A stretch of DNA of 64,000 bases from Zoogloea sp. 1C4 (GTDB lineage: Bacteria; Pseudomonadota; Gammaproteobacteria; Burkholderiales; Rhodocyclaceae): contig NZ_SSXU01000008.1 of NCBI RefSeq assembly GCF_009469605.1, forward strand, positions 1-64,000, in the 5' to 3' direction. How positions within the stretch are numbered: the first letter of the stretch is position 1; the number at the start of each line of letters is the position of its first letter. A model generated the notes under the pieces. The model worked only from the letters and a program-made list of their open reading frames with translations, made no database searches and was not told the DNA's origin. A program made the position numbers and the translations under genes. Below, piece after piece: positions 78-52,800 of the stretch.

Positions 78-127
78 GGCTCAATCCTCTCAGAGTATTG
101 GGCCTCCACCAAATCCGGGGCGGTTCA
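1..127 (-). mobile_element. IS3-type insertion sequence, left end
   Basis: Read on the minus strand, the sequence starts TGAACCGCCCCGG at about 127, which resembles terminal inverted repeats of IS3-family elements. It leads through about 50 bp into the OrfA start at 77. The outer boundary coincides with the beginning of the 21-bp palindrome array, so the element appears to have inserted at or in that array. The target duplication cannot be checked because the other end lies outside the window. Confidence 0.65.
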
Positions 128-402
128 GTCCGACCTACAACTTGAGCAGGTTCAAGTCCGACTTGAATCGGTTCAACCCGAACTTGCGACCGTTCAAGTC
201 GGACTTGAACCGGTTCAACAAAAACCTGGGATGTCCCAAGTAAAACTTGAACAAGTTCAAGTCGGACTTGAACCCACCTAAGTCCGACTTGCGGTCACGC
301 ACCAACAAGGTGAAGTGGTTCAAGTCCTACTTGAAGTCACTCAAATCGGACTTGAACGATTTCAAGTCTGACTTGAGCGGGCTCAAGTCCGGGATCAACC
401 CA
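128..402. repeat. Array 1: about 13 palindromic units with a 21-bp period
   Basis: Units begin at 130, 151, 172, 193, 214, 235, 256, 277, 298, 319, 340, 361 and 382, exactly 21 bp apart. The best units (151, 193, 256) are perfect or near-perfect palindromes of the form TTCAAGTCSGACTTGAA, with 4-bp linkers between 17-bp cores. Units 214, 235 and 298 are degenerate. Because 21 bp is seven codons, the array stays open in several frames and encodes heptads like FKSDLNR on both strands; I take that as a by-product. It fills the gap between the IS end and the TRAP permease gene. It could be an operator array, a string of small RNA hairpins or a minisatellite; function unknown. Confidence 0.85.
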
Positions 403-456
403 CGATCCCGCCCCCTCACCCACCCTCAACACGCCCCCCGCCCGAACAGCCCACCC

Positions 457-2259
457 ATGCGCCGACTGCCCTTCGACGAAGCCATCGCCTCCGCCGCGCT
501 GCTGCTGATGACCCTGATCCCGCTGGTGGAGATCGCCCTGCGGCCGCTGCACAACATGGGCATCGCCAACGCCCCGATGATCGTCCAGCACCTGGGGCTG
601 GTGCTCGCCATGGCCGGCGCGGTGCTGGCCGAGCGGGGCAACCACCTCACCAGCCTGGGCAACAGCTTTGCCAGCGCCCGCAATCCGGCCGTGCGGCACG
701 CCGCAAACCTCTTCGCCAAGGGCAGCGCGGCGGTGCTGTGCGGGATGCTGGCCGAAGCGAGCTGGCAGTTCGTCGCCAGCGAGATGGACGCCGGCCGGCT
801 GCTGGCCTACGGCCTGCCGGTATGGACGATCCAGGCCCTGATGCCCGTGGGCTTCGTGGTGCTGGGGGTCAAGCTGGGGAGCCGCTGCGCGAGCGGGCTG
901 GCACTGCGCATCGTGCTGGGCGTGGCCCTCACCGCCGCCGGCTACGCCTTTGCCCGGCACTTCGACGGGGCCGAGTTGCCCCTCGCCCCCTTCGCCATCG
1001 GGCTGGTGCTGGCCCTGCTGGCCGGGGCGCCGATCTTTGCGGTGCTGGGTGGGCTGGCCCTGGCGCTGTTCTGGTCCGAAGGCCAGCCGCTGGCGTCGGT
1101 GCCGCTCTCCCACTACCAGATCACGGTGAATCCCTCCCTGCCGGCGCTGCCGCTGTTCACCCTGGCCGGGTTGATCTTTGCCCGCAGCGGTGCCGCCGTT
1201 CGGTTGGGCGCGTTGTTTACCGCCAGCTTTGGCGGCGGCGCCATCGGCTCGTCGATTGCCGCGGCGCTGTTGTGTTCGTTCTTCACCGCCTTCACCGGCG
1301 GCAGCGGCGTCACCATCCTGGCCTTGGGCGGCCTGCTGCTGCCGCTGCTGAAGGACGCCGGCCTGCCCGAGAAGCGCGGCATCAGCCTCGTCACCAGCGC
1401 TAGCGCCCTGGGCGTGCTGCTGGCCCCGTCGGTGCCCCTCATCATGTACGCCATCATCGCCCGGGTGCCCATCAACACCATGTTCCTGGCCGGCGTGCTG
1501 CCGGCGCTGGTGATGGTGTTCTTCCTGCTCACCGTGGGCGGCTACCTGCGCCGGGACGGCATCGCCCAGGTGGAGCGCCCGAAGGCCGACTTCACCGCCG
1601 CCCGCAAGGCGGCCTGGGCGGCCCGCTGGGAGATCCTCGCCCCGGTGGTGGCCATCGGTTCGCTGGCCAGCGGCCTCGCCACCCCCACCGAAAGCGCGGC
1701 GCTCACCGCCGCCTACGCCCTCCTCACCCAGTCCATCGCCCACCGGGAGCTCGACGGGCCGCTGCTGCGCCGCTGCCTGGCCGACTGCGCCCAGGTGATC
1801 GGCGGCGTGATGCTGATCCTCGGCATGGCGCTGGGCCTTACCAACTATCTGGTGGATGCCGGCATTCCCGATGCGGCGGTGGAATGGGTCCAGGGCGCCC
1901 TGCCCAACCGCTTCGCCTTCCTGGTGGCGCTCAATGTGTTTTTGTTTGCGGCCGGTGCGCTGATGGAGATCTACGCCGCCATCGTGGTGCTGGTGCCGCT
2001 GCTCCTGCCGGTGGCGGTGAGCTACGGCATCGACCCGGTGCACTTCGGGGTGATCTTCCTGGCGGTGATGGAGATGGGCTTCCTGTGCCCGCCGGCGGGG
2101 ATGAACATCTTTTTCGCGTCGGCGATGTTCGGCAAGCCGATCCGCGAAGTGGCGGCGTCGGTGCTGCCAGCCCTGGCGGCGATCTTCCTGGGTGCGCTGG
2201 CGATCTCGGCGCTGCCGTGGCTGGCGACGGGCTTGCCGGGGTGGGTGATGGGCGGCTGA
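457..2259 (+). CDS. TRAP transporter permease, fused DctQ-DctM (4TM + 12TM)
   Basis: This 600-residue inner-membrane protein is very hydrophobic throughout. The N-terminal roughly 170 residues look like the small DctQ subunit and the rest like the large DctM subunit, including the family signature GLATPTESAAL near residue 410. TRAP permeases use ion gradients to import organic acids delivered by a periplasmic binding protein; that partner is not in the window, so the substrate is unknown. I chose the ATG at 457 (MRRLPFDEAI) because the upstream in-frame stretch is only the 21-bp repeat array translated as FKSDLN-type heptads. No strong ribosome site is visible. The gene ends 4 bp from the convergent moaE stop codon. 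Confidence 0.85.
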   Translation: MRRLPFDEAIASAALLLMTLIPLVEIALRPLHNMGIANAPMIVQHLGLVLAMAGAVLAERGNHLTSLGNSFASARNPAVRHAANLFAKGSAAVLCGMLAEASWQFVASEMDAGRLLAYGLPVWTIQALMPVGFVVLGVKLGSRCASGLALRIVLGVALTAAGYAFARHFDGAELPLAPFAIGLVLALLAGAPIFAVLGGLALALFWSEGQPLASVPLSHYQITVNPSLPALPLFTLAGLIFARSGAAVRLGALFTASFGGGAIGSSIAAALLCSFFTAFTGGSGVTILALGGLLLPLLKDAGLPEKRGISLVTSASALGVLLAPSVPLIMYAIIARVPINTMFLAGVLPALVMVFFLLTVGGYLRRDGIAQVERPKADFTAARKAAWAARWEILAPVVAIGSLASGLATPTESAALTAAYALLTQSIAHRELDGPLLRRCLADCAQVIGGVMLILGMALGLTNYLVDAGIPDAAVEWVQGALPNRFAFLVALNVFLFAAGALMEIYAAIVVLVPLLLPVAVSYGIDPVHFGVIFLAVMEMGFLCPPAGMNIFFASAMFGKPIREVAASVLPALAAIFLGALAISALPWLATGLPGWVMGG

Positions 2260-2263
2260 GGGC

Positions 2264-2737
2264 TCAGCCGGCCGGCGCCTCCCAGCGGGCGGCGGCCGAA
2301 TCGTCAGCCTCCCGCGCATCCACCCAGCGGCCGCCTTCCGGGGTGTCTTCCTTCTTCCAGAAGGGCGCGCGGGTCTTCAGGTAATCCATGATGAACTCGC
2401 AGGCGGCGAAGGCGTCGCCCCGGTGGCTGCTGGCCACGCCCACGAACACGATGCGCTCGCCAGGCGTGAGGCGGCCGAAGCGGTGGATGACCCGGGTGCC
2501 GAGCAGCTGCCAGCGGCTGCCGGCATCCAAGACGATGGCCTCCAGTGATTTCTCGGTCATGCCCGGGTAGTGCTCGAGGGTCATGGCCGACACTTCGCTG
2601 CCCTCCCCCGCCAGCTTGTCGGCCCGCACGAGGCCGACGAAGCTGGCCACCGCGCCCACGTCGTTACGACCGGCGGAGAGCGCGGCAATCTCTGCGCCGA
2701 CATCGAAGTCGGCTTCCTGCACGCTGACGGAATTCAT
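2264..2737 (-). CDS. moaE: Molybdopterin synthase catalytic subunit MoaE
   Basis: MoaE is the large subunit of molybdopterin synthase, which transfers sulfur from the MoaD C-terminal thiocarboxylate to precursor Z (cPMP) in the cytoplasm. The 157-residue length fits the family. The typical core is visible: VGLVRADKLAGEG near the N-terminus, VIHRFGRLTPGE in the middle and SSHRGDAFAACEFIMDYLK, followed by the Lys-rich APFWKKE region that holds active-site lysines. It is the last gene of the minus-strand Moco operon, 33 bp after moaD, with a GAGG ribosome site. Confidence 0.95.
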   Translation of the reverse strand: MNSVSVQEADFDVGAEIAALSAGRNDVGAVASFVGLVRADKLAGEGSEVSAMTLEHYPGMTEKSLEAIVLDAGSRWQLLGTRVIHRFGRLTPGERIVFVGVASSHRGDAFAACEFIMDYLKTRAPFWKKEDTPEGGRWVDAREADDSAAARWEAPAG

Positions 2738-2770
2738 GGTGGGCCTCGGTGGTGGTGGTGGATGGATGAA

Positions 2771-3025
2771 TTAGCCGCCGGTGACGGGCGGGAAGAAGGC
2801 GATCTCGTCCCGGTCGGCCACGGCGGTGTCGGCGCCGGCCATCTCCTGGTTGATCGCCATCCGCACGTTGCGGCCCACATCCAGCGCCTCCCACGCGCCG
2901 CCGCGCTTGGCGAGGTGGGCACGCAGGTCGCCCAGGGTGGCGATGGTGGCCGGCAGGGTCAGCGTCTCGTGGGAGTAGCCGAGGGTTTCACGGAGGCTGG
3001 CGAAATATAGAACCTTGATGCTCAT
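2771..3025 (-). CDS. moaD: Molybdopterin synthase sulfur carrier MoaD
   Basis: This is an 84-residue ubiquitin-fold protein starting MSIKVLYFASLRE and ending FFPPVTGG. The terminal Gly-Gly is the site of thiocarboxylation and of insertion into MoaE. Start at 3025 gives the normal MoaD length; a longer in-frame extension overlaps moeA in another frame and is not believable. It lies 7 bp downstream of moeA and directly upstream of moaE, so the two synthase subunits are co-expressed. Confidence 0.95.
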   Translation of the reverse strand: MSIKVLYFASLRETLGYSHETLTLPATIATLGDLRAHLAKRGGAWEALDVGRNVRMAINQEMAGADTAVADRDEIAFFPPVTGG

Positions 3026-3032
3026 GACGCGC

Positions 3033-4256
3033 TTACGAAAGAAGTTCGGAATAAGGAATGAAGCGGACCAGATCGCCCGCGGCAACCGGCTGGCCGGCCG
3101 GGTTATCCACGAGGCCATCGGCCCACACGGTTGAGGTGAGGACGCCCGGGCCCTGGTTGGGGAAGAGGTCGACCTTGCCTTCGACACCGATGCGCGCACG
3201 CAGGAACTCCCGGCGGCGGTCCGGCTTGGTCCAGTTGAAGCCGGCCGGCAGCGGAATCGACCGGGGCAGGCAGTCGGCCACGCCCATCGAACGCAGCACG
3301 AAGGGCCGCACCAGCAGCAGGAAGGTGACGAAGCTCGACACGGGGTTGCCAGGCAGGCCGATGAAGGCCGCGCCCTCGCCGCCGGCGGGATCGTTCACCT
3401 GACCGAAGGCCACCGGCTTGCCGGGCTTCATGGCGACGAGCCACAGGTCGAGCCGGCCTTCGGCCTGCACCGCCGGGCGCACGTGGTCTTCTTCGCCCAT
3501 GGACACGCCGCCGCTGGTGACGATCAGATCATTGGCCGCAGCGGCGCTCCGCAGGGCGGCGCGGGTGGCATCCAGGGTATCGGGCACGATGCCCAGGTCT
3601 TCCACCTCGCAGCCGAGGGCTTCGAGGAGGCCGCGCAGCACGTAGCGGTTGGAGTTGTAGATGGCGCCCGGCGGCAGCGGCTCGCCGGGCATCACCAGCT
3701 CGTCGCCGGTGGAGAACAGCGCCACCTTGAGGCGCCGGAACACCGGCAGCGTGGCGCAGCCCACCGACGCGGCAAGGCCCAGCATCTGGGGCGTGAGGCG
3801 CACGCCGGCGGAAAGCACCGTGGAACCCAGCGCGATGTCTTCGCCGGCGCGGCGGACCCACTCGCCCGCGCGGGGTACGTGGTCGATGGTCACGCTGTTG
3901 CCGTCGGCGGTGCACAGCTCCTGCATCACGATGGCGTCGGCGCCATGGGGCACCGGGGCGCCGGTGAAAATGCGCGCGGCGGTACCACGGGCCAGGGTGT
4001 GGCCGACGCTGCCGGCGGGGATGCGCTGGGCCACGGTGAGGCGCGCGCCGGGAGCGGTCACGTCGGCGGTGTTCACCGCGTAGCCGTCCATCGACGAGTT
4101 GTCGAGGGGCGGCACGTTGAGGGACGACACCTGATCGACGGCCAGCACACGGCCGAGGGCTTCGGCGGTGGGCACCTGTTCGATGGCGGAAACGGGCTTG
4201 GCGGCAGCCAGCAGCGCCGCCCGCACGTCGTCGAAGGGACGCATGGGATTGCTCAT
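3033..4256 (-). CDS. moeA: Molybdopterin molybdenumtransferase MoeA
   Basis: A 407-residue protein matching MoeA/Glp, which inserts molybdate into adenylated molybdopterin. Visible landmarks are LNVPPLDNSSMDGYAV near residues 47-62, the MoCF-type motif ALFSTGDELV, IYNSNRYVLRGLLE and TSGGVSMGEEDHV, and IGLPGNPVSS in the C-terminal half. The start codon overlaps the mobB stop codon as ATGA, indicating translational coupling. It is a full-length member with no visible defects. Confidence 0.95.
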   Translation of the reverse strand: MSNPMRPFDDVRAALLAAAKPVSAIEQVPTAEALGRVLAVDQVSSLNVPPLDNSSMDGYAVNTADVTAPGARLTVAQRIPAGSVGHTLARGTAARIFTGAPVPHGADAIVMQELCTADGNSVTIDHVPRAGEWVRRAGEDIALGSTVLSAGVRLTPQMLGLAASVGCATLPVFRRLKVALFSTGDELVMPGEPLPPGAIYNSNRYVLRGLLEALGCEVEDLGIVPDTLDATRAALRSAAAANDLIVTSGGVSMGEEDHVRPAVQAEGRLDLWLVAMKPGKPVAFGQVNDPAGGEGAAFIGLPGNPVSSFVTFLLLVRPFVLRSMGVADCLPRSIPLPAGFNWTKPDRRREFLRARIGVEGKVDLFPNQGPGVLTSTVWADGLVDNPAGQPVAAGDLVRFIPYSELLS

Positions 4257-4747
4257 ATCAGGCCCTGGTGTTGGAGGATGAAATCGGCCACGGCGGCCGG
4301 ATCGTTGAGGTCTAGGCGCGGCAGCGGCGCGTCGAGGGGCACATCCGTGGCGATCGCCACTATGGCCGGGTTGTCGGGGTACTGCAGCGGCTTGCCCACC
4401 GCCGGGCGATGGACTTCGAGCTTGGGGATCTGCACGGCCTTGAAACCCTCGACCAGCACCAGATCGCAGGGCGACAGACGCGCCAGCTGGGCGTCGAGAT
4501 CAGGCTCGGGCTCGCCGCGCAGTTCGTGCATCAGCACCCAGCGCTCGTCGGAGATCAGCAGGATCTCGCTGGCACCGGCCTCCCGGTGGCGCCACGAATC
4601 CTTGCCCGGCTTGTCGATGTCGAAGCCGTGGTGGGCGTGCTTGATGACCGACACCTTGAGGCCGCGGCGGGTGATCTCGGGGATGACCTGCTCGATCAGC
4701 GTGGTCTTGCCCGAGCCGGACCAGCCGGCAAATCCGAAAACCTTCAT
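4253..4747 (-). CDS. mobB: Molybdopterin-guanine dinucleotide biosynthesis adaptor MobB
   Basis: MobB is a small P-loop GTP-binding protein that supports MobA in attaching GMP to molybdopterin. The 164-residue product begins MKVFGFAGWSGSGKTTLIEQ, with a Walker A at residues about 9-17. It also carries the family segments VIKHAHHGFDIDKPGKDS and CDLVLVEGFK. It overlaps the ATP-grasp-like gene upstream and moeA downstream by ATGA junctions, so three consecutive genes are translationally coupled. MobA is not in the window. Confidence 0.92.
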   Translation of the reverse strand: MKVFGFAGWSGSGKTTLIEQVIPEITRRGLKVSVIKHAHHGFDIDKPGKDSWRHREAGASEILLISDERWVLMHELRGEPEPDLDAQLARLSPCDLVLVEGFKAVQIPKLEVHRPAVGKPLQYPDNPAIVAIATDVPLDAPLPRLDLNDPAAVADFILQHQGLI

Positions 4748-6120
4748 GCTGCTCCTTCGTGGCCGCAGGGCACCGCCAGCACCGGGGCGAAGCCGCCGCC
4801 GGGGGTGCGGAAATTGGTGGTCTGGCCGCGATAAAGCCGTGCGGTGACCAGTTGGACCTCGCCCCGATAGACGTAGTTGCGCAGGTCCATCTTGAGCGCC
4901 ACGGCCTCGCCGCCCACCGACAGGCGCCGCTCGGAGGGCGGCACGAGGGCCTGGGCGATGTAGTCGCCGGCGATGATTTCGTCGAAGACGCGACGGGTGA
5001 GCTTGTCGCCCCGATACGCGCCGCGGCTGCCAAAGCCGCTGGCCGGCTTGAAGAACAGACTGCGGCGACGGGCCCAGAAATCCGCCGCCTGCCCGGCCGT
5101 GACGGCCTCGGTGCGCGGCACGCCGGCGGTGATCACCGCGATGTCGGCTTCCGCCGCGCCCATCCGGCGCAGGGCGTCGGGGTTGGAGAGCAGCACCAGG
5201 TTGCGCTTGTCGGCGTACAGGGCGTGGGCGCGGGGGTGCGGCGTGATGACCGCCGAGCCGACCAGCCAGGCTTCCCGCAGCGCGCGGCTGGCGGGGGCGT
5301 CGAAGGAGAAGTCGGTGAGGCGGTTATAGACCAGATCCACCCGTTGACCATGCAGCATCAGCCCGTCGGCGGTGTGCGCCAGCTCGGACGGATCGCAGAT
5401 CCACGCGGCCACGCCGTGGCGCTCGAACAGCCGCTGGAAGAGCAGGAACTCGGGCAGCAGGTACTGGCCCTGGGGCGCCTCGTCGACGATGGCGACCGTG
5501 GTGAGCGGCGCATCGCCCCGCTCCGCCCGCCATTCGGCCTGGAACATCTCGAAGAACACCCGCTCCAGATCGCCCGAGGCGTGGCCCTGCATGGCGCTCA
5601 TGGCCTCGGCCACCTCGTCGCAGCACGCGCGCTGGGCGCGGCCGAGGATGGCGGCGAGCAGCCCGCCGCCGGCGTTGGTGTTGATCTCGATGAGCTGGGG
5701 GCCAGCATCCGAGAGATGGAAGTCGTAGCCGAGGAATACGCCGGATGCGCGGGTGGCGTGGCGGGCGGAGTCCGGCGCGTGGGCCAGCACCGCGTCCTGC
5801 CAGCCGGGCAAGGGCACCACGCGGTGGATGGCGGCAATCAGATCGGCCATCTGCTGCACGTGCGCGGCCGACACGAAGGCCATGGATTCGGCAAACAGGT
5901 GCGGGCGCGACTCGGCGATCATCGCCTGCAGCGCCCCGTCCCGCGGGTCGCGGGCGAGCGCGGCCACCAGCGCCTGACGGTCCAGCGACACGCACTGGCA
6001 GCCGGCGTTGAGGGCTTCGGCGGCGTCGACGCAGTCGTGCCCGGCGTTACCGGCCAGGCGGGCGATGAGGGCGGAGGGCGACGACAGCGCGTTGGCGTTC
6101 GGATCGGTCAAGGACGGCAT
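4744..6120 (-). CDS. Circularly permuted ATP-grasp-like protein of unknown function, first gene of the Moco operon
   Basis: I do not recognise a named function. The 458-residue protein has an ATP-grasp-like layout in permuted order: PQLIEINTNAGGGLL at about 140-155 looks like the metal-binding E-x-N segment of the ATP site, and LFFKPASGFGSRG at about 355-367 looks like the nucleotide-binding lysine/glycine loop. It is followed by KMDLRNYVYRG and RTPGGGFAPV near the end. Such folds usually form amide or peptide bonds using ATP. There is no signal peptide. The stop codon overlaps the mobB start, so it is co-translated with mobB-moeA-moaD-moaE. A role in molybdenum cofactor maturation is inferred from context only. 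The 21-bp array 2 lies immediately upstream. Confidence 0.7.
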   Translation of the reverse strand: MPSLTDPNANALSSPSALIARLAGNAGHDCVDAAEALNAGCQCVSLDRQALVAALARDPRDGALQAMIAESRPHLFAESMAFVSAAHVQQMADLIAAIHRVVPLPGWQDAVLAHAPDSARHATRASGVFLGYDFHLSDAGPQLIEINTNAGGGLLAAILGRAQRACCDEVAEAMSAMQGHASGDLERVFFEMFQAEWRAERGDAPLTTVAIVDEAPQGQYLLPEFLLFQRLFERHGVAAWICDPSELAHTADGLMLHGQRVDLVYNRLTDFSFDAPASRALREAWLVGSAVITPHPRAHALYADKRNLVLLSNPDALRRMGAAEADIAVITAGVPRTEAVTAGQAADFWARRRSLFFKPASGFGSRGAYRGDKLTRRVFDEIIAGDYIAQALVPPSERRLSVGGEAVALKMDLRNYVYRGEVQLVTARLYRGQTTNFRTPGGGFAPVLAVPCGHEGAA

Positions 6121-6185
6121 CGGAGCAAGGTGTCAGGCGCGGGATTGTAGCAGCGGGGGCCGGCGCCGCGCCGGATGGACCGGCC

Positions 6186-6447
6186 AGCCCCGCAAGCAAT
6201 AAAGACTCGTGCACGAACAGTGGCCGCTTGCGCGCGAATCGTGGAGCGTTGCCCGCAAGCGGCGGACATTCGACCGCAAGCAGTTGCCGCTTGCACGCGA
6301 GTGATTTTTGCTCGTGAGCAAATGAAATCCGTTTGCGCGCAAGCAAAAATCACTTGCGCACGAATGGCTGCGGCTTGCGCGCAAATCCGTTTTACTCGCG
6401 GCCAAGCAAATTTTCCTTGATCGCGAATCGGCTTTGCTTGCGCGCGA
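6186..6447. repeat. Array 2: 13 palindromic units with a 21-bp period
   Basis: Units of consensus TYGCGCGCRA begin at 6186, 6207, 6228, 6249, 6270, 6291, 6312, 6333, 6354, 6375, 6396, 6417 and 6438, exactly 21 bp apart. Perfect 10-bp palindromes TTGCGCGCAA occur at 6333 and 6375, and TCGTGCACGA at 6207; others carry one or two changes, and 6186 and 6396 are weakest. The array fills the gap between the dinG-like gene end (6470) and the start of the Moco operon (6120). It has the same period and copy number as array 1 but a different palindrome. No gene is seen in 6121-6469. Confidence 0.85.
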
Positions 6448-6469
6448 ACAAATACAGCGCGTGGGTGGG

Positions 6470-8428
6470 TCAACCCTGCCGCGCGGCCGGCGGCGGCAGA
6501 TCCTCGAGGAAGGCCACCACCTCGGATTCGACCTTGCTGCGGGTCATGGGCGGGAGGCTCTGCCACACCCGGCGGCCGTAGGGCTTGGTGAGCATGCGCG
6601 GGTCGCAGATGGCGAGCACGCCCTTGTCGCGCTCGGTGCGGATCAGCCGGCCGGCGCCCTGCTTGACGTTGATGACCGCCCGCGGGAGCTGGTATTCCAT
6701 GAAGGGGTTGCGGCCGGATTTGTTCATGTGCTCGATGCGCGCGGCGAGCACCGGGTCGTCGGGCGGGGCGAAGGGCAGCTTGTCGATGACCACCACCGAC
6801 AGGGCATCGCCCGGCACATCGACACCTTCCCAGAAGCTCTGGCTGGCCACCAGGATGGCGTTGCCGAGCCGGCGGAAGCGCTCCAGCAGTTCGGTGCGCG
6901 AGCCTTCGCCCTGGATCAGCAGAGGCAGGTCGAGCTTGTCCCGCTCCAGCGCATCGGCGATCAGCTCGTGGATGCGCCGCATGGCGCGCAGCGAGGTGCA
7001 CAGCACGAAGGTGCGGCCCTGGGCGGCGCGGATCAGGGGAATCGCCACCTTGGCAACCGCATCCGGGTAATCCGGGCTGTTGGGCTCGGGCATGTTCTGG
7101 GGCGCGTACAGCACCGCCTGGGCCGGGTAGTCGAAGGGCGAACCCCACACCGCGGTCTCGATGGGCGGCTCGACCCAGTTGAGGCCCAGCTCGCGGCAGT
7201 AGTGGCCAAAATCGCGCCCCACCGCCAGGGTGGCGGACGTGAACACCCAGGCCCGCGGGTGGCCGTCCATCTGGCGCTTGAAGATCGAGGCGATGGACAG
7301 GGGCGTGGCGTTGAGGGCGAGGGTCTGGCTGAACACCTCGACCCAGCGCACCCAGTCGGTGCCCTCCGGCACCTGCCAGCGGGCCAGGCGCTGCTGGATC
7401 TCCTGGGTACGGCGCAGGCAGTTGGCGAGGCCCTCGGAGCGCTCGGCCTGGGATTCCACCAGCGTGCAGAAATCGGTGAGCTCGGCATCGAGCGCGTCGA
7501 CGGCTTCGTGGAACTCCTTGTTGTCGGCGAGCTGGGCGTAGCCGAAGCGGGCGTTTTCGGCCTGCACCGACAGGCGCAGATCCCGCGCGGCTTTTTCGAG
7601 CTTGCGGGTGGCTTCGATGAGGGCGAGGCAATCCCGGGCGGCGGCGACCGTCTCGGAGCGCGTGTCGCGGGCGAGCTCCAGCAGCTGGGCGGTGGACACG
7701 CTCTCGCCGAAGAACAGGCTGGCGGTTTCGGGCAGCTGGTGGGCTTCGTCGAAGATCACCGCGTTGCACGAGGGCAGCAGCTCGCCCATGCCTTCGTCGC
7801 GGAGCATCACGTCGGCAAAGAAGAGGTGGTGATTGACCACCACCACGTCGGCGTCCATCGCGGCGCGGCGGGCGGCGGCGACGAAGCATTCCTTGATGTT
7901 GGGGCATTCCTGCCCCAGGCAGTTGTCCCGGGACGAGGTGGCGAACATCCAGGCGGCGGCATCCTCGGGCACCTCGGGGCACTCGGCCTTGTCGCCGCTC
8001 TGGGTGATCTCCATGAAGCGGCCGATGGCGCGCAGGTGCCCGGCGTCCTCGGGAGTGGTGAAGCGGCCATCCACCAGATTGCGGGCCAGGTGGTAGTGGC
8101 ACACGTAGTTGGCCCGGCCCTTGAGCAGCGCCACGCCCACCGGCACCTTGAGGGCGGCGCGGATGGTGGGCAGATCGCGGTTGAAGAGCTGGTCCTGGAG
8201 GGTTTTGGTGCCGGTGGAGATGATGACCTTGCCGCCGTTGAGCAGTGCGGGCACCAGATAGGCGTAGGTCTTGCCGGTGCCGGTGCCGGCCTCGGCCACC
8301 AGCACGCCGTTCTCCTTGAGGGTGTGGGCGATGTGGGCGGCCATCTCCAGCTGCTGGGGGCGCGGGGAGAAACCGGGGATCGCCGCGGCGAGGGGGCCGT
8401 CGGCGGCAAAGGCTTGTTCTACGTTCAT
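6470..8428 (-). CDS. DinG/YoaA-family ATP-dependent 5'-3' DNA helicase (Fe-S, XPD-like)
   Basis: This 652-residue superfamily 2 helicase resembles E. coli YoaA more than DinG in length. Walker A AGTGTGKT lies at residues 47-54 and the DEAH box appears as VIFDEAHQLPE. Four cysteines at 110, 170, 175 and 181 (NYVC, DNCLGQEC, KEC) are placed as expected for the 4Fe-4S cluster of this family. The C-terminal helicase domain includes QSFWEGVDVPG and QGAGRLIRTERD. These enzymes unwind forked DNA or D-loops in repair. It lies 9 bp after the secretin-domain gene, with which it is probably co-transcribed together with zapE. Confidence 0.9.
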   Translation of the reverse strand: MNVEQAFAADGPLAAAIPGFSPRPQQLEMAAHIAHTLKENGVLVAEAGTGTGKTYAYLVPALLNGGKVIISTGTKTLQDQLFNRDLPTIRAALKVPVGVALLKGRANYVCHYHLARNLVDGRFTTPEDAGHLRAIGRFMEITQSGDKAECPEVPEDAAAWMFATSSRDNCLGQECPNIKECFVAAARRAAMDADVVVVNHHLFFADVMLRDEGMGELLPSCNAVIFDEAHQLPETASLFFGESVSTAQLLELARDTRSETVAAARDCLALIEATRKLEKAARDLRLSVQAENARFGYAQLADNKEFHEAVDALDAELTDFCTLVESQAERSEGLANCLRRTQEIQQRLARWQVPEGTDWVRWVEVFSQTLALNATPLSIASIFKRQMDGHPRAWVFTSATLAVGRDFGHYCRELGLNWVEPPIETAVWGSPFDYPAQAVLYAPQNMPEPNSPDYPDAVAKVAIPLIRAAQGRTFVLCTSLRAMRRIHELIADALERDKLDLPLLIQGEGSRTELLERFRRLGNAILVASQSFWEGVDVPGDALSVVVIDKLPFAPPDDPVLAARIEHMNKSGRNPFMEYQLPRAVINVKQGAGRLIRTERDKGVLAICDPRMLTKPYGRRVWQSLPPMTRSKVESEVVAFLEDLPPPAARQG

Positions 8429-40811: not shown

Positions 40812-43800
40812 ATGGCCACCCCGTCCGCCCCGATCAACGCCACCACCAACGCCACCGCCAAGGGCACCGTCGTTTTCGTGCAGGGCGAAGCCTTCCTGCG
40901 CGACGCCGCAGGCAAGCTCACCGCCATCAAGCCGGGCGATCCGGTCGGGGAAGGCCAGGTCATCGTCACGGGGCCGGACTCTGTCGTCGAACTCCAGCTC
41001 GCCACCGGCGCCAAGGTCAGCGTCGGCGCTGATCGCGAGCTTCTGCTGAACGATGACTTCTTCGCCACCACCGTGCCGGAGCGCAGCGAGAACGTCATCT
41101 CCAGCCAGGGCGCCGAGGCCGACAAGATCATCCAGGCCCTGAACAGCGGCAAGGACCCGTTTGAAGGCATCGAAGACCCGGCCGCGGGCCTCGCCGGTGG
41201 CGGCCTGGGCGACCAGACCCACGACTTCGTGCGCCTCGTGCGGGTGCTTGAAGAAGTCACGCCGCTGGCTTTCGCGTACTCGTCCACCAGCGACGGCATC
41301 GACTTCCTGCCGCTCAACGCCGGCGCCGCCACGCCCACGACGACGACCATCGCCAACAACCCGCCGGTGGCCACCCCCGACCCGGCCGTCAGCGCCACCG
41401 AAGACACCCCGGTGAGCTTCCCGGTGCTCGGCAATGACACCGACGCCGACGGCGACCCGCTCACCGTCACCGGCGCCACCGCCAGCAACGGCACCGTCAC
41501 CGTCAATCCGGACGGCAGCCTCAGCTACAAGCCGAACCCCGATTTCCACGGCACCGACACCGTCACCTACACCATCAGCGACGGCAAGGGCGGCACCGCC
41601 ACCACCACCGTGACCATCAACGTAGCGCCGGTGAACGATCCGCCGGTGGCCGTGGCCGACACCGCCACCACTCGCGAAGACACCCCCGTCACCGTCGCCG
41701 TGCTCGGCAACGACACCGACGTGGACGGCGACACCCTGACCGTCACCGGCGCCACCGTCGATCCGGCCAAGGGCAGCGTCACCGTGAATCCGGACGGCAC
41801 CCTGACCTTCACCCCGGCCACCAACGTCAATGGCCCGGTCACGATCACCTACACCATCGACGACGGCAAGGGCGGTACGACCACCGCGACCGCCACCGTC
41901 AATATCGCCCCGGTGAATGACCCGGCCACCGTCTCCGCGGGCGCCGGCAGCGTCAAGGAAGACACCCCGGCCCAGTCCACGACGTCCGGCACGCTCGCCA
42001 TCACTGATCCGGACGCCGGCGAAGCCGCCTTCCAGCCCCAGACCAACACCGCTGGCACCTACGGCAGCTTCACGATTGCCGCCGATGGCGCGTGGTCCTA
42101 CACCCTCGACAACACCAAGCCGAACGTCCAGGCCCTGAAGGAAGGCGAAACCCGCACCGAAACCTTCACCGTCCAGAGCATCGACGGCACCCCGACCACG
42201 GTCACCATCAGCGTCGTCGGCACCAACGACGGTCCCGTCGCCAACCCCGACACCGCCGCCACCAACGAAGACACCCCGATCACCTTTGCCGTCCTCGGCA
42301 ACGACACCGACCCGGACGGCGATCCGCTCACCGTTACCGGCGCCACCGTCGACCCGGCCAAGGGCACCGTCACCGTCAATCCGGACGGCACCCTCACGTT
42401 CAACCCGGCCGCCAACATCAATGGCCCGGTGACGATCACCTACACCATCGCTGACGGCAAGGGCGGCGGCACCACCGGCATCGCCACCATCAATGTCGCG
42501 CCCCAGCCCGACAACGCCGTGCTCGGCACCGGCGCCGGCACCGTCAAGGAAGACACGCCCGCCCAGACCACTGCCAGCGGCACCCTCACGATCACTGATC
42601 CGGACGCCGGCGAAGCCGCCTTCCAGCCGCAGACCAACGTGGCCGGCACCTACGGCAGCTTCAGCGTGGCTGCCACCGGCGCGTGGTCCTACGCCATCGA
42701 CAACACCAAGCCCAACGTCCAGGCCCTGAAGGAAGGCGAGACCCACACCGAAACCTTCACCGTCCAGAGCATCGACGGCACCCCGACCACGGTGACCATC
42801 ACCGTCGTCGGCACCAACGACGGCCCCGTCGCCAATCCCGACACCGCCGCCACCAACGAAGACACCCCGGTCACCTTTGCCGTGCTCGGCAACGACACCG
42901 ACCCTGACGGCGATCCGCTCACCGTCACCGGCGCCACCGTCGACCCGGCCAAGGGCACCGTCACCGTCAATCCCGACGGCACCCTCAGCTTCACCCCGGC
43001 CGCCAACGTCAATGGCCCTGTCACCGTCACCTACACCATCGCCGACGGCAAGGGCGGCACCACCACCGGCATCGCCACCATCAATGTCGCGCCCCAGCCC
43101 GACAACGCCGTGCTCGGCACCGGCGCCGGCACCGTGAAGGAAGACACCCCCGCCCAGACCACTGCCAGCGGCACCCTCACCATCACTGATCCTGACGCCG
43201 GCGAAGCTGCCTTCCAGCCCCAGACCAACGTTGCCGGCGCCTACGGCAGCTTCAACGTTGCTGCCAGCGGCGCGTGGACCTACGCCATCGACAACACCAA
43301 GCCGGTCGTCCAGGCCCTGAAGGAAGGTGAAACCCACACCGAAATCTTCAGCGTCCAGAGCATCGACGGCACCCCGACCACAGTCACCATCACCGTCGTC
43401 GGCACTAACGACGGCCCCGTCGCCAACCCCGACACCGCCAGCACCAACGAAGACACTCCGGTCACCTTCGCTGTCCTCGGCAACGACACCGACCCGGACG
43501 GCGACACCCTCACCGTCACCGGTGCTACCGTCGATCCCACCAAGGGCACGGTCGTCGTCAATCCGGACGGCACCCTCAGCTTCACCCCGGCCGCCAACGT
43601 CAATGGCCCTGTCACCGTCACCTACACCATCACCGACGGCAAGGGCGGCACGACCACGGCCACCGCCACGGTCAACATCGCCCCGCTCAACGACGACCCG
43701 CTCGCCCGCAATGACGTGAATGGTCTGGTCAAGACCGACAGCCTGCCCGCCACCGGCAACGTCATCACCAACCCGGCTGGCATCGACACCGACGTGGACG

Positions 43801-46800
43801 GCGACACCCTCACCGTCACCACCGTTGCCGGCGCACCGGTGAGCGGCGCCACCGTCATCACCGGCCTCTTCGGCACCCTGACGATCCAGGCCGACGGCCA
43901 GTACAGCTACATCCAGGACACCACCAACCCGGCCGTCACCGGCCTGGTCCCGGGCGCCACGCTGCAGGACAGCTTCGCCTACACCGTCGAGGACGGCCAC
44001 GGCGGCAGCGCCAACGCCGTGCTGACGATCAACATCGCCGGCGCCAACACCCCGCCCGTCGCAAGCCCCGACACCGCCAGCACCGACGAAGACAAGCCGG
44101 TCACCTTTGCCGTGCTCGGCAACGACACCGATCCCGAAGGCGACGCGCTCACCGTCACTGGGGCCACCGTCGATCCGACCAAGGGCACGGTCACCGTCAA
44201 TCCGGACGGCACCCTCAGCTTCACCCCGGCCACCAACGTCAATGGCCCGGTGACCATCACCTACACCATCGCCGACGGCAAGGGCGGCACCACCACCGGC
44301 ACCGCCACGGTCAACATCGCCCCGCAGCCCGACAGCGCCACCCTTGGCACCGGCAGCGGCACGGTGAAGGAAGACACCCCGGCTCAGTCCAGCGCCTCCG
44401 GCACCCTCACGATCACCGACCCGGACGCCGGCGAATCCACCTTCAAGCCCCAGACCAGTGTCGCTGGCTCCTACGGCAGCTTCAGCATCGCCACCAACGG
44501 CGCCTGGACCTACGACATCGACAACACCAGGCCGAACGTCCAGGCCCTGAAGGAAGGCGAAACCAAGACCGAAACCTTCACCGTCCAGAGCGCTGATGGC
44601 ACCCCGACGACCGTCACCATCACCGTCGTCGGCACCAACGATGGCCCGGTCGCCCAGCCCGACACCGCCACCACCGAAGAAGACAAGCCAGTCACCTTCG
44701 CGGTCCTCGGCAACGACACCGACCCCGACAGCGATCCGCTCACCGTCACCGGCGCCAGCGTCGACCCGACCAAGGGCAGCGTCACCGTCAATCCGGACGG
44801 CACCCTCAGCTTCAGCCCGGCCGCCAACGTCAATGGCCCCGTCACCGTCACCTACACCATCAGCGACGGCCACGGCGGCACCACCACCGGCACCGCCACC
44901 ATCAACGTCACCCCGCTGCCCGACAACGCGGTGATGAGCGCCGGCACCGGCACCGTCAAGGAAGACACCCCGGCCCAGTCGTCCGCCTCCGGCACCCTCA
45001 CCATCACCGACCCGGACGCTGGCGAAGCCGCCTTCCAGCCCCAGACGAACGTCGCCGGCACCTATGGCACCTTCAGCGTGGCCGCCAACGGCGCCTGGAC
45101 CTACGACATCGACAACACCAGGCCGACTGTCCAGGCCCTGAAGGAAGGCGAAACCAGGACCGAGACCCTCACCGTCCAGAGCGTCGACGGCACCCCGACC
45201 ACGGTGACCATCACCGTCGTCGGCACCAACGACGGCCCGGTCGCCAATCCCGACACCGCCAGCACCAACGAGGACGTCCCCGTCACCTTCGCCGTGCTCG
45301 GCAATGATTCCGACCCCGATGGCGACACCCTCACCGTCACCGGCGCCACCGTCGACCCCGCCAAGGGCACCGTCACGGTCAATCCCGACGGCACCCTGCG
45401 CTTCGTCCCGGCCAACAACGTCAATGGCCCGGTGACCGTCACCTACACCATCGCCGATGGTCACGGCGGCACGACCACCGGCACCGCCACCATCAACGTG
45501 GCGCCGGTCAACGACCCCGCCACCATCAGCAGCGGCGTCGGCAGCGTGCAGGAAGACACCACCCTGATCGCCAAGGGTGTGCTCACCATCACCGACCCCG
45601 ACGCCGGCGAATCCGCCTTCCAGGCCCAGACTGGCACACCGGGTACCTTCGGCGCCTTCTCCATCGACGCCAGCGGTAACTGGACCTACACCCTCGACAA
45701 CGGCAACCCCGTCGTCCAGGCCCTCGCCACCGGCGACAGCCGCACCGAAACCTTCACCGTCCGCGGCGTCGATGGCACCCCCAGCACCGTCGTCGTCACC
45801 ATCCTCGGCACCAACGAAGTCATCGGCGCGCCGGGCCTCGGCGTCGTGAAGGAAGACAACCCGATTACCGCCGACGGCAAGCTCACCGCCAGCGGCGGCG
45901 CCAGCTTCGTGCCGCAACCGGCCACCCCGGGCACCTACGGCAGCCTCACCCTCAACCCGGACGGCAGCTGGACCTACACCCTCAACAACGCGTCCAACCT
46001 CGTCCAGAGCCTCGGCGACGGCCAGACCCGCATCGAAACCTTCCCGGTCGCCCTGTCCGACGGCACCACCAGCACCATCACGATCACCGTCGTCGGCACC
46101 AACGACCCGGCCATCGTCACCCCGGGCCTCGGCACCGTGGTCGAAGACACCCAGCTCACCACCGGCGGCACGCTGGTGATGACCGACGCGGACGCCGGCG
46201 AAACCGGCTTCCGGCCGCAGCCCGTGGTCGCCGGCCTGTACGGCGTGTTCGCCCTCGACACCGCCGGCAACTGGACCTACACCCTCAACAACGCGAACCC
46301 GACCGTCCAGGCCCTCGGCGTTGGCGAGACCCTCACCGAAACCTTCCCCGTCGCCACCCTCGACGGCACGCCCAGCACCGTCACGGTCACCATCCAGGGC
46401 ACCAACGACGGCCCGATCGCCCTGCCCGACACCGCCGCCACCAATGAGGACGTGCCGGTCACCTTCGCGGTCCTCGGCAATGACTCGGACCCGGACGGCG
46501 ATACCGTCACCGTCACCGGCGCCACCGTCGACCCGACCAAGGGCACCGTCGTCGTCAATCCCGACGGCACGCTCACGTTCAACCCTGCCGCCAACGTCAA
46601 TGGCCCGGTCGCCATCACCTACACCATTGCCGATGGCCACGGCGGCACCACCACCGCGACCGCCACGGTGAACATCGCCCCGATCGCCGACCCGGCGATC
46701 CTCGGCACCGGCACCGGCACGGTGAAGGAAGACACCCCGGCCCAGACCAGCGCCTCCGGCACCCTCAGCATCGTCGACCCCGACGCCGGCCAGGCCGCCT

Positions 46801-49800
46801 TCCAGCCCCAGACCAACACCGCCGGCACCTACGGCAGCTTCAGCGTCGCCGCCTCCGGCGCCTGGACTTACGCCATCGACAACACCAAGCCCGTCGTCCA
46901 GGCCCTGAAGGAAGGTGAGACCAAGACCGAAACCTTCACCGTCCAGAGCATCGACGGCACCCCGACCACCGTCACCATCAACGTCGTCGGTACCAACGAT
47001 GGCCCGGTCGCCAACCCCGATACCGCCAGCACCAACGAAGACGTGCCGGTCACCTTCGCCGTCCTCGGCAATGACTCGGACCCCGACGGCGATACCCTCA
47101 CCGTCACCGGCGCCACCGTTGATCCCACCAAGGGCACCGTCACCGTCAATCCGGACGGCACGCTGAGCTTCACCCCGGCCGCCAACGTCAATGGCCCGGT
47201 GACCATCACCTACACCATTGCCGACGGCCACGGCGGCACCACCACCGCGACCGCCACGGTGAACATCGCCCCGATTGCCGATCCGGCAATCCTTGGCACC
47301 GGTACGGGCACCGTCAAGGAAGACACTCCGGCCCAGACCACCGCCTCCGGCACCCTCAGCATCATCGACCCCGACGCTGGCCAGGCCGCCTTCCAGCCCC
47401 AGACCAACGTCGCCGGTACTTACGGCACCTTCTCGGTCGCCACCACCGGCGCCTGGACCTACACCGTCGACAACACCAAGCCCGTCGTCCAGGCCCTGAA
47501 GGAAGGCGAGTCCAAGACCGAAACCTTCACCGTCCAGAGCATCGACGGCACCCCGACCACCGTCACCATCAACGTCGTCGGCACCAACGATGGCCCGGTC
47601 GCTAACCCCGACACCGCCAGCACCAACGAAGACGTCCCGGTCACCTTCGCGGTCCTCGGCAATGACTCGGACCCGGACGGCGATACCCTCACCGTCACCG
47701 GCGCCACCGTCGATCCGACGAAGGGCACCGTCTCGGTCAATCCCGACGGCACCCTCAGCTTCACCCCTGCCGCCAACGTCAATGGCCCGGTCGCCATCAC
47801 CTACACCATTGCCGATGGCCACGGCGGCACCACCACCGCAACCGCCACGGTGAACATCGCCCCGATCGCCGACCCGGCGATCCTCGGCACCGGCACCGGC
47901 ACGGTGAAGGAAGACACCCCGGCCCAGACCACCGCAACCGGCACCCTCAGCATCGTCGACCCCGACGCCGGCCAGGCCGCCTTCCAGCCGCAAACCAACG
48001 TCGCCGGTACTTACGGCACCTTCAGCGTCGCCACCACCGGCGCCTGGACCTACACCGTCGACAACACCAAGCCCGTCGTCCAGGCCCTGAAGGAAGGTGA
48101 AACCCGCACCGAAACCTTCACCGTCCAGAGCATCGACGGCACGACCACCACGGTCACCATCAACGTCGTCGGCACCAACGACGGCCCAGTCGCTAACCCC
48201 GACACCGCCAGCACCAACGAAGACGTGCCGGTCACCTTCGCCGTCCTCGGCAACGATTCGGACCCTGACGGCGACTCCCTCACCGTCACCGGCGCCACCG
48301 TCGACCCGACGAAGGGCACTGTCACGGTCAATCCGGACGGCACGCTCACCTTCAACCCGGCCGCCAACGTCAATGGCCCGGTGACCATCACCTACACCAT
48401 CAGCGACGGCCACGGCGGCACCACCACCGCGACCGCCACGGTGAACATCGCCCCGATCGCCGATCCGGCGATCCTCGGCACCGGCACGGGCACGGTGAAG
48501 GAAGACACGCCCGCGCAGACCACCGCCTCCGGCACCCTGAGCATCGTCGACCCCGACGCCGGCCAGGCCGCCTTCCAGCCGCAAACCAACGTCGCCGGTA
48601 CTTACGGCACCTTCAGCGTCGCCACCACCGGCGCCTGGACCTACACCGTCGACAACACCAAGCCCGTCGTCCAGGCCCTGAAGGAAGGTGAAACCCGCAC
48701 CGAAACCTTCACCGTCCAGAGCATCGACGGCACCCCAACCACCGTCACCATCAATGTCGTCGGCACCAACGATGGTCCGGTCGCCAACAACGACACCGCC
48801 ACGACGAAGGAAGACACGCCTGTCACCTTTGCGGTGCTCGGCAACGATGGCGATCCCGACGGCGACACCCTCACCGTCATCGGTGCCACCGTCGATCCCA
48901 GCCTGGGCACGGTCGTCGTCAATCCGGACGGCACGCTCACGCTCACCTTCAAGCCGGCCATCGACTACAACGGGCCGGTCGAGATCCAGTACACGATCTC
49001 CGACGGCCACGGCGGCACCGCAACGGCCATCGCCACCGTCACGGTCGAACCGATGCCCGACACCGCCATCCTTGGCACCGGCGCCGGTACCGTGCAGGAA
49101 GACACCCCGGCCCAGACCACCGCCACCGGTACGCTGACGATAATCGATCCGGACGCCGGCGAAGCCGTATTCCAGCCCCAGACCAACGTCGCCGGCACCT
49201 ACGGTACGTTCTCGGTCGGCACGGGCGGCGCCTGGATCTACACGATCGACAACAGCCTGCCGGCCGTTCAGGCCCTGAAGGAAACCGACAGCAAGCTCGA
49301 AGTCTTCACCGTCAAGAGCGCCGACGGCACCGAAACCACCGTCACCATCACCGTCAAGGGCACCAACGACGGCCCGGTGGCGCAGCCTGACACCGCAACC
49401 ACCAACGAAGACACCCCGGTCACCTTCGCCGTCCTCGGCAATGACTCGGACCCGGATGGCGACACCGTCACCGTCACCGGCGCCACTGTCGACCCGACCA
49501 AGGGCACCGTCACCGTCAACCCGGACGGCACCCTCACCTTCAATCCGGCCGCCAACGTCAATGGCCCGGTCACCGTCACCTACACCATCTCCGATGGCCA
49601 CGGCGGCACCACCACCGGCACCGCCACTGTCAATGTCGCGCCCCAGCCTGACAACGCCGTACTTGGCACCGGCACCGGCACCGTCAAGGAAGACACGCCC
49701 GCGCAGACCACCGCGACCGGCACCCTGAGCATCGTCGACCCCGACGCCGGCCAGGCCGCCTTCCAGCCCCAGACCAACGTCGCCGGCACCTACGGCACCT

Positions 49801-52800
49801 TCTCCGTCGCCACCACCGGCGCCTGGACTTACACCGTCGACAACACCAAGCCCATCGTCCAGGCCCTGAAGGAAGGTGAGACCAAGACCGAAACCTTCAC
49901 CGTCCAGAGCATCGACGGCACGACCACCACCGTCACCATCAACGTCGTCGGCACCAATGACGGCCCGGTGGCCAACCCCAACACCGCCAGCACCAGCGAG
50001 GACGTCCCCGTCACCTTCGCCGTGCTCGGCAACGACACCGACCCGGACGGCGACACCCTTGTCGTCACCGGCGCCAGCGTCGACCCGGCCAAGGGCACGG
50101 TCACCGTCAATCCGGACGGCACCCTCACCTTCACCCCGGCGACCAACGTCAGCGGCCAGGTGGTCATCAGCTACACCATCAGCGACGGCCACGGTGGCAC
50201 CAGCAGCTCCACCGCCACCATCCTAGTGGCGGCGGTCAACGACGCCCCGGTTGCGCTTGCCGACACCAACACCACCACCGAAGACACGCCGATCACCAGC
50301 ACCGCGCCGGGCGTGCTCGCCAACGACACCGACCCGGACAGCCCGACGCTCACCGTCACCGGCGCCCTCGTCGGCACCACGGGCACCTTCAGCGCGGTCA
50401 GCGGCGCCGGCCTCACCCTGGCCGGCACCTACGGCACCCTGGTGATCCACACCGACGGCAGCTACACCTACACCCCGGGTGCCGCCGCGCAGGCCCTCAA
50501 CACCGGCACCACGGTGCAGGACGTCTTCAGCTACCGGGCCAGCGACGGCGCGCTCACCAGCACCGCCACGCTCACCATCAACGTCACCGGCGCCAACGAC
50601 GCGGCCCAGATCAACGGGCCGCTCGCCGGCTCCGTCAAGGAAGACACCGCCGGCCAGCTCGTCGCCAGCAACTCCCTGTTCGTGACCGACGTGGATAACC
50701 CGGCCGCCTTCAACCCGGCCACCGTCACCGGCACCTACGGCAGCTTCAGCATCAACGCCGCGGGCGACTGGACCTACACCCTCAACAACAGCGCCCCCAA
50801 CGTGCAGGCCCTGAAGGAAGGCGACACTCGCGTCGAAACCTTCACCGTCAGCACGGTGGATGGCACCACCCGCGCCATCACCATCGACGTGCTCGGCACC
50901 AACGAGCGTCCCGCCGTCACCGCCGCCAGCGCCACCGGCAGCGAAGATCCGGCCGCGCCGATCGCCATCAGCCTTGGCGGCGCCGACGTGGATGGCACCG
51001 TCACCCAGCTGACCATCGCCGACCTGCCCGCCCACGGCACCCTGTACCGCGACGCGGCCATGACCCAGCCGATCGCAGCCGGCGCCACCCTCAGCGGCGC
51101 CACCGGCACCGTCTACTTCAAGCCCGACGCCAACTGGAACGGCAACACCAGCTTCCACTACACCGCCACCGACAACAACGGCGGCGTCTCCACCCAGGGC
51201 ACGGCCAGCATCGGCGTCACCGCGGTGAACGACGCCCCGGTTGCCGCCAACGACGTGGGCAGCGTGCTTGAAGACGGCACCCTCACCGTGACCGCCGCCA
51301 ACGGCCTCATCACCAGCACCGCCAACCCCGCCGGCACCGACACCGACGTGGATAGCGCCAGCCTCACCGTCACCCAGATCCGCACCGGCGCCGAAGCCGC
51401 CACGGGCACCGCCGGCACCATCGGCACCGCGCTGGCCGGCACCTACGGCACCCTCACGCTGCAGGGTGACGGCAGCTACGTCTATATCGCCAACAAGGCC
51501 GCGGCCCTGGCCGCCGGTGTCACCGCCACCGACGTCTTCACCTACCGCGTGAGCGACGGCAGCCTCAGCGACACCGCCGAACTGCGCATCACCGTCACCG
51601 GCACCAACGACACCCCGGTCACCGTCGGCACCCTGCCCAACGTCAGCGGCGTGGATGCAAGCGGCGTCAGCATCCCCACCGCCAGCGGCTTCAGCGATCC
51701 GGATAGCGGCGACGTGCTGCACTACACCGCCACCAACCTGCCGGCCGGCCTCACCATCGACCCGACCACCGGCGTGATCACCGGCACCCTCGGCGCCGGC
51801 GCCTCCCAAGGTGGCCCGTACAGCATCGTCGTCACCGCCACCGACGGCAGCGGCGCGAGCGTCAGCCAGACCTTCCAGCTCACCGTCACCAACCCGGCCC
51901 CGACGGCCGCGGCCGACACCCTCGCCGTCTCCGAGAACCTCAGCGCCGGCGGCAACGTCGTCACCGGCGTCGGCATCGGCGGCGACCGGGCCGACAGCGA
52001 CCCGGACGGCGACACCCTCACCGTCACCCGCATCGGCACCGGAACCGGCACCCCGGCCACCGCAGTCACCGCCGCCGGCACCAGCGTCGTCGGCGCCCAC
52101 GGCACCCTGGTGATCCACACCGACGGCAGCTACACCTACACCGCCACCGACAACACCCTGCAGGCCGGCGAGCACGCCACCGACGTCTTCAGCTACACCG
52201 TCTCCGACGGCCAGGGCGGCACCGCCACCACCACGCTCACCGTCGACGTCACCGGCACCAACGACGCCCCGGTGATCGGCGGCACGGCCCTGGGCAACGT
52301 CACCGAAGACGGCACCCAGACCGCCAGCGGCACGCTGACCATCACCGACGCCGACGCAGGCCAGTCCGGCTTCGTCGCCAAGTCCATTGGCGGTACCTAC
52401 GGCTCGCTCACCATCGACGCCAGCGGCAACTGGACTTACACCCTCAACAACGGCGCCGCCAACGTGCAGGGCCTCAAGCAAGGCCAGCAGGTGGTCGACC
52501 GCATCAACGTCACCACCCTCGACGGCACCACCCGCGAGATCGCCATCACCGTCACCGGCACCAACGACGCCCCGGTGGTCGGCACCGGCACCGCCACGGT
52601 GTCGGAAGAAGGCCTCACCAACGGCGCGTCCGACAACTTTGGCACCAGCGACACCACCAACCTCACCACCGCCGGCGGCGTCATCAGCGTCAGCGATGTG
52701 GACGGCAACACCCTCACCGCCACGCTCACCCCGCCGCCGGTCGACCTCACCTCCGGTGGCATGTCGATCAGTTGGACGGGCGCCGGCACCGGCACGCTCA

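Follow-up and report, generated by a model that had tools for sequence, protein, structure and literature searches.

Can a family of DNA repeats be held together by geometry while its sequence changes from member to member? The question is raised by two tandem arrays in the first 64,000 nucleotides of a contig of Zoogloea sp. 1C4 (G000:C129:1-64000, hereafter the window; the genome comprises 5.02 Mb in 140 contigs). Sequence is the usual criterion for a repeat family. In these arrays the period, the symmetry and the array length are preserved and the sequence is not, and a class of 21-bp dyad arrays independent of the unit sequence, or seed, looks real in Zoogloea. Because sequence varies while geometry holds, sequence-based catalogues would split this class into many unrelated minisatellites.

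The two arrays of the window

Array bounds and indel counts were obtained by wrap-around alignment (Table 1). The initial annotation had described two arrays of dyad design with the same 21-bp step and about 13 units each, and this was borne out by the unit counts and by scores far above those of shuffled sequences. Both arrays show autocorrelation peaks of ~0.52-0.55 at lags of 21 and 42, with 0.34 and 0.36 at the next best lags, and each matches its own reverse complement at offsets spaced 21. The joint period-plus-dyad score was 1.24 for array 1 and 1.08 for array 2, with maxima of 0.74 and 0.79 among 300 dinucleotide shuffles of each; a chance origin was rejected, as none of the shuffles reached the observed score. 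Tandem Repeats Finder reports array 1 and misses array 2. The description of array 1 as AT-leaning stands (50% GC, window 66%), and array 2, at 56%, is GC-leaning only relative to array 1. Neither array had a match in a plasmid collection.

One period, many seeds

Further arrays were found in the same genome by pattern, with seed A (that of array 1) at C58, C118, C96 and C9, a second instance of seed B (that of array 2) at C47, and seed C, which is related to A and B and weaker, at C54 and C75. A motif-free scan was then run on 1.264 Mb of this genome, window included, with a score that added complementarity about one dyad class to self-match at 21 and 42. It returned ten strong period-21 matches, of which nine were kept as arrays; C75:291943 was dropped as coding, Ala/Pro-rich sequence by eye. 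The scan added seed E (C64 ~187637-187972 and C75 ~304443-304715), seed F (C75:240-491) and seed G (C118:82391-82768); two weak extra seeds (C64:245469-245699 and C118:213212-213484) were found subsequently. In all, the seeds fall into seven clear groups plus two weak ones, and arrays of the class run to ~10-18 units of 21 bp.

For a test of the period itself, genes predicted by a home-made codon model were masked and periods of 12-40 were allowed in 1,751,767 bases of Zoogloea sequence, of which 286,609 were called non-coding. All 18 intergenic matches were best at period 21. The same held for 13 of 13 after removal of five stretches that had been picked by 21-spaced patterns (C96, C47, L127, L128 and L138), and for 9 of 9 after further removal of the two given arrays and their two orthologues on L042. 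Note that the gene mask concealed one known array (C118:128472), which is overlapped by a small predicted frame. We rejected a detector artefact as the cause of the uniform period, as synthetic arrays of other periods were found about as often: 12 periods from 13 to 35 were each recovered in 31-40 of 40 trials. For synthetic periods 13-20 the best period was correctly reported in just 8-15 of 40 trials, so that for true periods below 21 the reported value is often wrong. The unmasked scan of 1.264 Mb also gave 11 matches at periods 15, 18, 24, 27 and 30, every one a multiple of 3; we take these as codon periodicity, and none was left once genes were masked.

Spacing was uniform as well when the gap was left free. 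In 4 of 23 Zoogloea genomes (this one included), two copies of TGAACNNGTTCA separated by any 0-28 bases were found at 11 sites, all 11 spaced 21. The seed-B pattern with a free gap matched at two sites, in 2 of 23 genomes; each was spaced 21, and one of them (G014) is the array 2 orthologue. An off-period control, in which the pattern was spaced 19 bp instead of 21, gave no match in 296 genomes including this one, a count that says nothing on distribution.

With 18 of 18 masked matches at 21 and at least seven seed groups, the proposal that the class is set by geometry rather than sequence is upheld, and the consensus-free period scan suggested with it gave, on the sampled Zoogloea, further arrays and a uniform period. 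The freedom of sequence is partial. There are many seeds, but they are not wholly free: CTTG..CAAG is common to A, B and C, and CTCAG..CTGAG to D and E.

Internal structure

Internal structure was analyzed in 24 arrays placed in dyad register; six are orthologues of the other 18, and the counts are therefore partly non-independent. Covariation between paired arms was absent. With an even centre, 1529 of 3020 cells paired versus 1532.8 after permutation, and with an odd centre 1444 of 2780 versus 1436.5. Similarity between units, direct and inverted, was 12.71 and 12.61 in array 1, 10.58 and 10.59 in array 2, and 11.14 and 10.50 over the 23 arrays without the seed-E array of C64. Because units match nearly equally in both orientations and arms do not covary, the working unit in most arrays is a half of ~10.5 bp in alternating orientation. 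Direct copies are clearly in surplus in both E arrays and in G008 C26, which are exceptions to the dyad symmetry; units of the E array at C64 are near-identical. Array F contains a 25-bp exact inverted copy.

Conservation across columns was uneven (20 degrees of freedom), with chi2 values of 244.7 for seed A, 81.6 for B and 82.3 for D. Unevenness was also seen in E and G, was lesser in C, and was not significant in F (27.2). Conservation is minimal at the axes, and the largest Fourier term lies at 10.5 bp. The 24 arrays contain 2,261 mismatches versus 9 indels (251 mismatches per indel), all indels being of 1 bp; five of the 9 lie in two seed-C arrays, and 18 arrays are without any. By these counts the sites are held in helical phase, with the proviso that detection demands ~8 units in phase and so favours in-phase arrays, those out of phase escaping it.

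Gain and turnover

Seven orthologous pairs were compared: array 1, array 2 and the C118, C9 and C96 arrays with their G014 partners, one pair between G006 and G008, and one between Zoogloea ramigera and L045. The seed and the register were kept in all seven. Four pairs align without small gaps, and in the remaining three a 1-bp indel is present in one or both members. The C9 array differs from its partner by a single 42-base gap, or two units; per-unit identity is 14-21 of 21 in the first eight units and 11-17 in the last seven. This contrast between a nearly unchanged left part and a much more divergent right part shows that units turn over.

Both window arrays are present in the sister MAG.512 (L042, which corresponds to contig G014:C181). 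At the array 2 site, 58-198 bp separate dinG from the following gene in L034, L035, L039, L040, L041 and L047, with no array between them. At the array 1 site, the space before dctQM is at most ~190 bp and likewise lacks an array in L033, L034, L035, L036, L037 and L041. Arrays 1 and 2 are thus recent gains, common to one sister species and absent at these sites from six other species each. Of the events for which strain comparison had been proposed, array gain was seen at these two sites, and seed switching at one site was not seen in the seven orthologous pairs. Two apparent switches were discarded: L052/L083, where by eye an insertion sequence (IS) end lies beside both arrays, and L054/L122, where the match is a distant homologue at 58% identity.

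Distribution in Zoogloea and beyond

A seed-D array (TGAGC..GCTCA) lies directly after moaE in Zoogloea ramigera (L037) and in MAG.273 (L045). A search with the seed-D pattern found 4 loci, of which one is an array, on the same contig as L045; control counts were 1 and 1, and the remaining three loci are probably chance. G011 has an array centred on GTTAAC with a 42-bp superperiod and a weak dyad. At L130:19245-19580, in a Zoogloea other than that of the window, a 21-bp array has a 42-bp superperiod in which two unit types alternate. G021 carries a GAGGTCGAA..TTCGACCTC array with a short, sub-threshold seed-A stretch ~0.5 kb off, a pair that mirrors the arrangement in the window with a different pair of seeds.

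Of 60 genomes, 5 (this one included) contained the seed-A pair pattern, all of them in the window's genus, and 763,774 bases sampled from other genera gave no non-coding array at any period from 12 to 40 (crude non-coding filter). This absence outside Zoogloea is only suggestive, because arbitrary stretches of other Zoogloea (185,280 bases) also gave no array at the strict threshold and one (L130) at a looser threshold. Separately, a perfect 15-bp tandem repeat, GGAGCTGTCCCTGTG, was seen in a different genus of the family at L165 near 630 (G027:C1 near 520630).

Genomic setting

Judged with the home-made gene caller, the arrays are intergenic, and neighbouring genes are tandem, convergent or divergent, at least three arrays lying between divergent genes. 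Six of the 24 overlap a called frame, four of them overlapping only small low-scoring frames or the ends of neighbours. The 150-bp flanks of 13 arrays of this genome contain no common leader, tail or inverted ends; they share only a repetitive extragenic palindrome (REP) and an apparent IS end (C75a, C75b and C58). At loci of other species, the flanks have in common orthologous genes, a single IS end and a single paralogue.

The REP word GTAGGTCGG, which occurs 89 times in 1,164,000 bases, lies within 200 bp of 7 of the 13 arrays and also adjoins the two weak ones. At the array 1 site of Zoogloea oleivorans, several GTAG-type palindromes stand upstream of dctQM (L038 15632-15963). By eye, IS ends lie directly beside several arrays, IS3-like in the window and IS256-like at L001 from 1796 onward, L083 1-235 and L052 1796-2003. 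Arrays may be favoured as IS landing sites.

Relation to known systems

CRISPR arrays (clustered regularly interspaced short palindromic repeats), defined by 24-48 bp repeats separated by unique spacers (PMC3733652), fit poorly, as the entire period here is only 21 bp. The BrickBuilt minisatellite of Porphyromonas gingivalis likewise repeats a short intergenic unit (23 nt) in tandem, at numerous loci within a single species; it is one sequence inside a miniature inverted-repeat transposable element with leader and tail (PMC4596501), whereas the Zoogloea arrays have many seeds, a period of 21, dyad units and no common ends. GTAG-tagged REPs are also short intergenic palindromes, often clustered, but are single tagged palindromes linked to RAYT proteins (PMC3733652), whereas these arrays are untagged, gap-free and of 21-bp step. 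PARCELs share tandem repetition with dyad symmetry and variable palindromic motifs, but are 75-nt protein-coding repeats (PMC2996958); the Zoogloea unit is 21 bp and non-coding, array 1 having stops in six frames. BrickBuilt, REPs and PARCELs are, on these descriptions, the nearest systems, each failing a tested defining feature. Searches of open-licence PubMed Central text listed no class with fixed period and symmetry but free sequence, in agreement with the initial remark that no such family was known.

What the arrays may be

We tentatively prefer, from sequence data, the reading that the arrays are helically phased, operator-like sites for dimeric or polymerising DNA-binding proteins. Each helical turn (10.5 bp on average) carries a half-site of ~5-6 conserved bases in alternating orientation, and the array would form a row of operator-like dyads along one face of the double helix. 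A dimeric protein may occupy these dyads and spread cooperatively, and different seeds would be recognised by different, perhaps paralogous, proteins. Arm covariation would be lacking because half-sites, acting singly, are additive, and an indel would shift later sites off the face; within an array, units would be replaced through 21-bp copying steps, direct or inverted. This reading explains the independent half-sites, the phase, the one-turn conservation and the lasting seed and register. In tandem operator and partition-site arrays, such as ARG boxes and plasmid centromeres, dyad half-sites in helical phase are cooperatively bound by dimers; these have one sequence per protein and few loci, whereas Zoogloea has many seeds, ~13 boxes and many loci.

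Several points weigh against operator-like sites. No binding protein was identified, and at least seven seeds would demand equally many binding specificities. The tandem, convergent and divergent settings are unlike those of promoter operators. The 10.5-bp rhythm is partly forced, since conservation is impossible at the odd centre of an array of this kind, and column unevenness in seed F is not significant. Some of the counts behind the reading are tempered by the six orthologues within the 24 arrays, and the need for ~8 in-phase units hides arrays that lost phase. Units of array E are mostly direct copies, as in plain tandem expansion.

Self-templated expansion without function is the chief alternative, possible if somewhat more doubtful. 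A short local sequence would be copied over and over in direct and folded-back form (through slippage or hairpin extension), so that a dihedral array could grow from any seed, with a 21-bp step given by two helical turns or by an enzyme, and the arrays would be neutral minisatellites. This explains the many seeds within one genome, the dihedral symmetry and the sudden birth of arrays. Inverted unit similarity close to direct similarity in most arrays, the exact inverted copy in array F, the near-identical units of array E at C64, the two-unit difference between orthologues, the recent gain at two sites and the want of a single gene setting all point the same way. By itself, expansion leaves the restriction to period 21, the rarity of indels and the half-site conservation unexplained, and no enzyme was identified. 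The two processes may have acted in sequence, arrays being born by copying and then kept by binding. A bolder version, which we consider speculative and rather unlikely, is that array-building is active and seed-independent in Zoogloea: an enzyme or repair pathway would measure two helical turns and copy a half-site of 10-11 bases alternately forward and inverted, giving birth to intergenic 21-bp dihedral arrays from different seeds; proteins responding to geometry more than to letters would later maintain the phase of these arrays.

That the arrays are rows of hairpins in transcripts, as a structured RNA or terminator, is improbable. As RNA, array 1 surpasses its shuffles in folding by a wide margin (z -11.1, with 0 of 200 matching it) and array 2 by a moderate one (z -4.0, with 1 of 200 matching it), but good folding is expected of any inverted-repeat array. 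The missing covariation is compatible with hairpins insofar as any half-site can pair with either neighbour, yet it is not what paired arms would show, and Rfam yielded just three sub-threshold miRNA matches on the arrays. Array 1, like its orthologue, is flanked by same-strand genes resembling one transporter operon (in the orthologue, the second gene was judged by eye). This placement argues against a terminator, as do the arrays between divergent genes.

It is very unlikely that the arrays arose or were mobilised through the Y1 transposases of GTAG-type REPs. The REP word is near many arrays, and the two Y1 transposase genes of this genome, L184 (C118:84853-85119) and L185 (C64:183686-184042), each lie less than 4 kb from an array, but such closeness is expected, as REPs and arrays occupy the same intergenic space. 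Each gene has, at its flanks, GTAG-type palindromes of its own (GTAGGTCGGACTTCAGTCCGAC and GTAGGTCGGGTTAGCGCAGCGTAACCCGAC) and no array units, GTAG is in the unit consensus of none of the 24 arrays, and G008 has at least three arrays and no match to the Y1 transposase family. Tandem seven-residue peptide repeats are hardly credible: 21 is a multiple of 3 and in 19 of the 24 arrays one or more of the six frames stay open throughout, but array 1 has stops in all six, array variability has no 3-base rhythm, and every indel is of 1 bp.

Compared with these alternatives, operator-like sites remain the reading that we tentatively prefer. The arrays offer a tractable case for the origin of helically phased arrays (free-living bacteria, intergenic position, absence at the same sites in close relatives), and they open to study the question of whether the period is set by selection or by a copying process.

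Features of the window

Table 1. Positions and strands of the arrays and of adjoining features, in window coordinates.
Feature	Position	Strand	Remarks
IS end beside array 1	1..~112		Right limit approximate, up to ~128; reads like IS3-family OrfA start, by eye (strand -)
GTAG-type REP remnant CAGTCCGACCTAC	126..138	-	Abuts array 1; name REP following PMC3733652
Array 1, seed A	133..391	no strand	Consensus gACTTGAac.ggtTCAAgTC.; 12.3 units of 21 bp, 0 indels
Fused DctQ-DctM transporter gene	457..2259	+	Downstream of array 1
Conserved gene	4744..6120	-	Start adjoins array 2; no Pfam match; ATP-grasp-like by eye
Array 2, seed B	6189..6453	no strand	Core CTTGCGCGCAAG, cores separated by ~9 variable bases; 12.6 units of 21 bp, 0 indels
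DinG-like helicase gene	6470..8428	-	3' end adjoins array 2

Named relatives of the conserved gene adjoining array 2 were found in Zoogloea (12 loci), a Zoogloeaceae bacterium (1) and Aromatoleum (2). Farther along, window positions 41320-55296 hold a long run of large coding repeats, with a 282-bp period plus 24-bp and 27-bp repeats, the last of which read by eye like RTX-type glycine/aspartate repeats. This region is probably a giant repeat adhesin.

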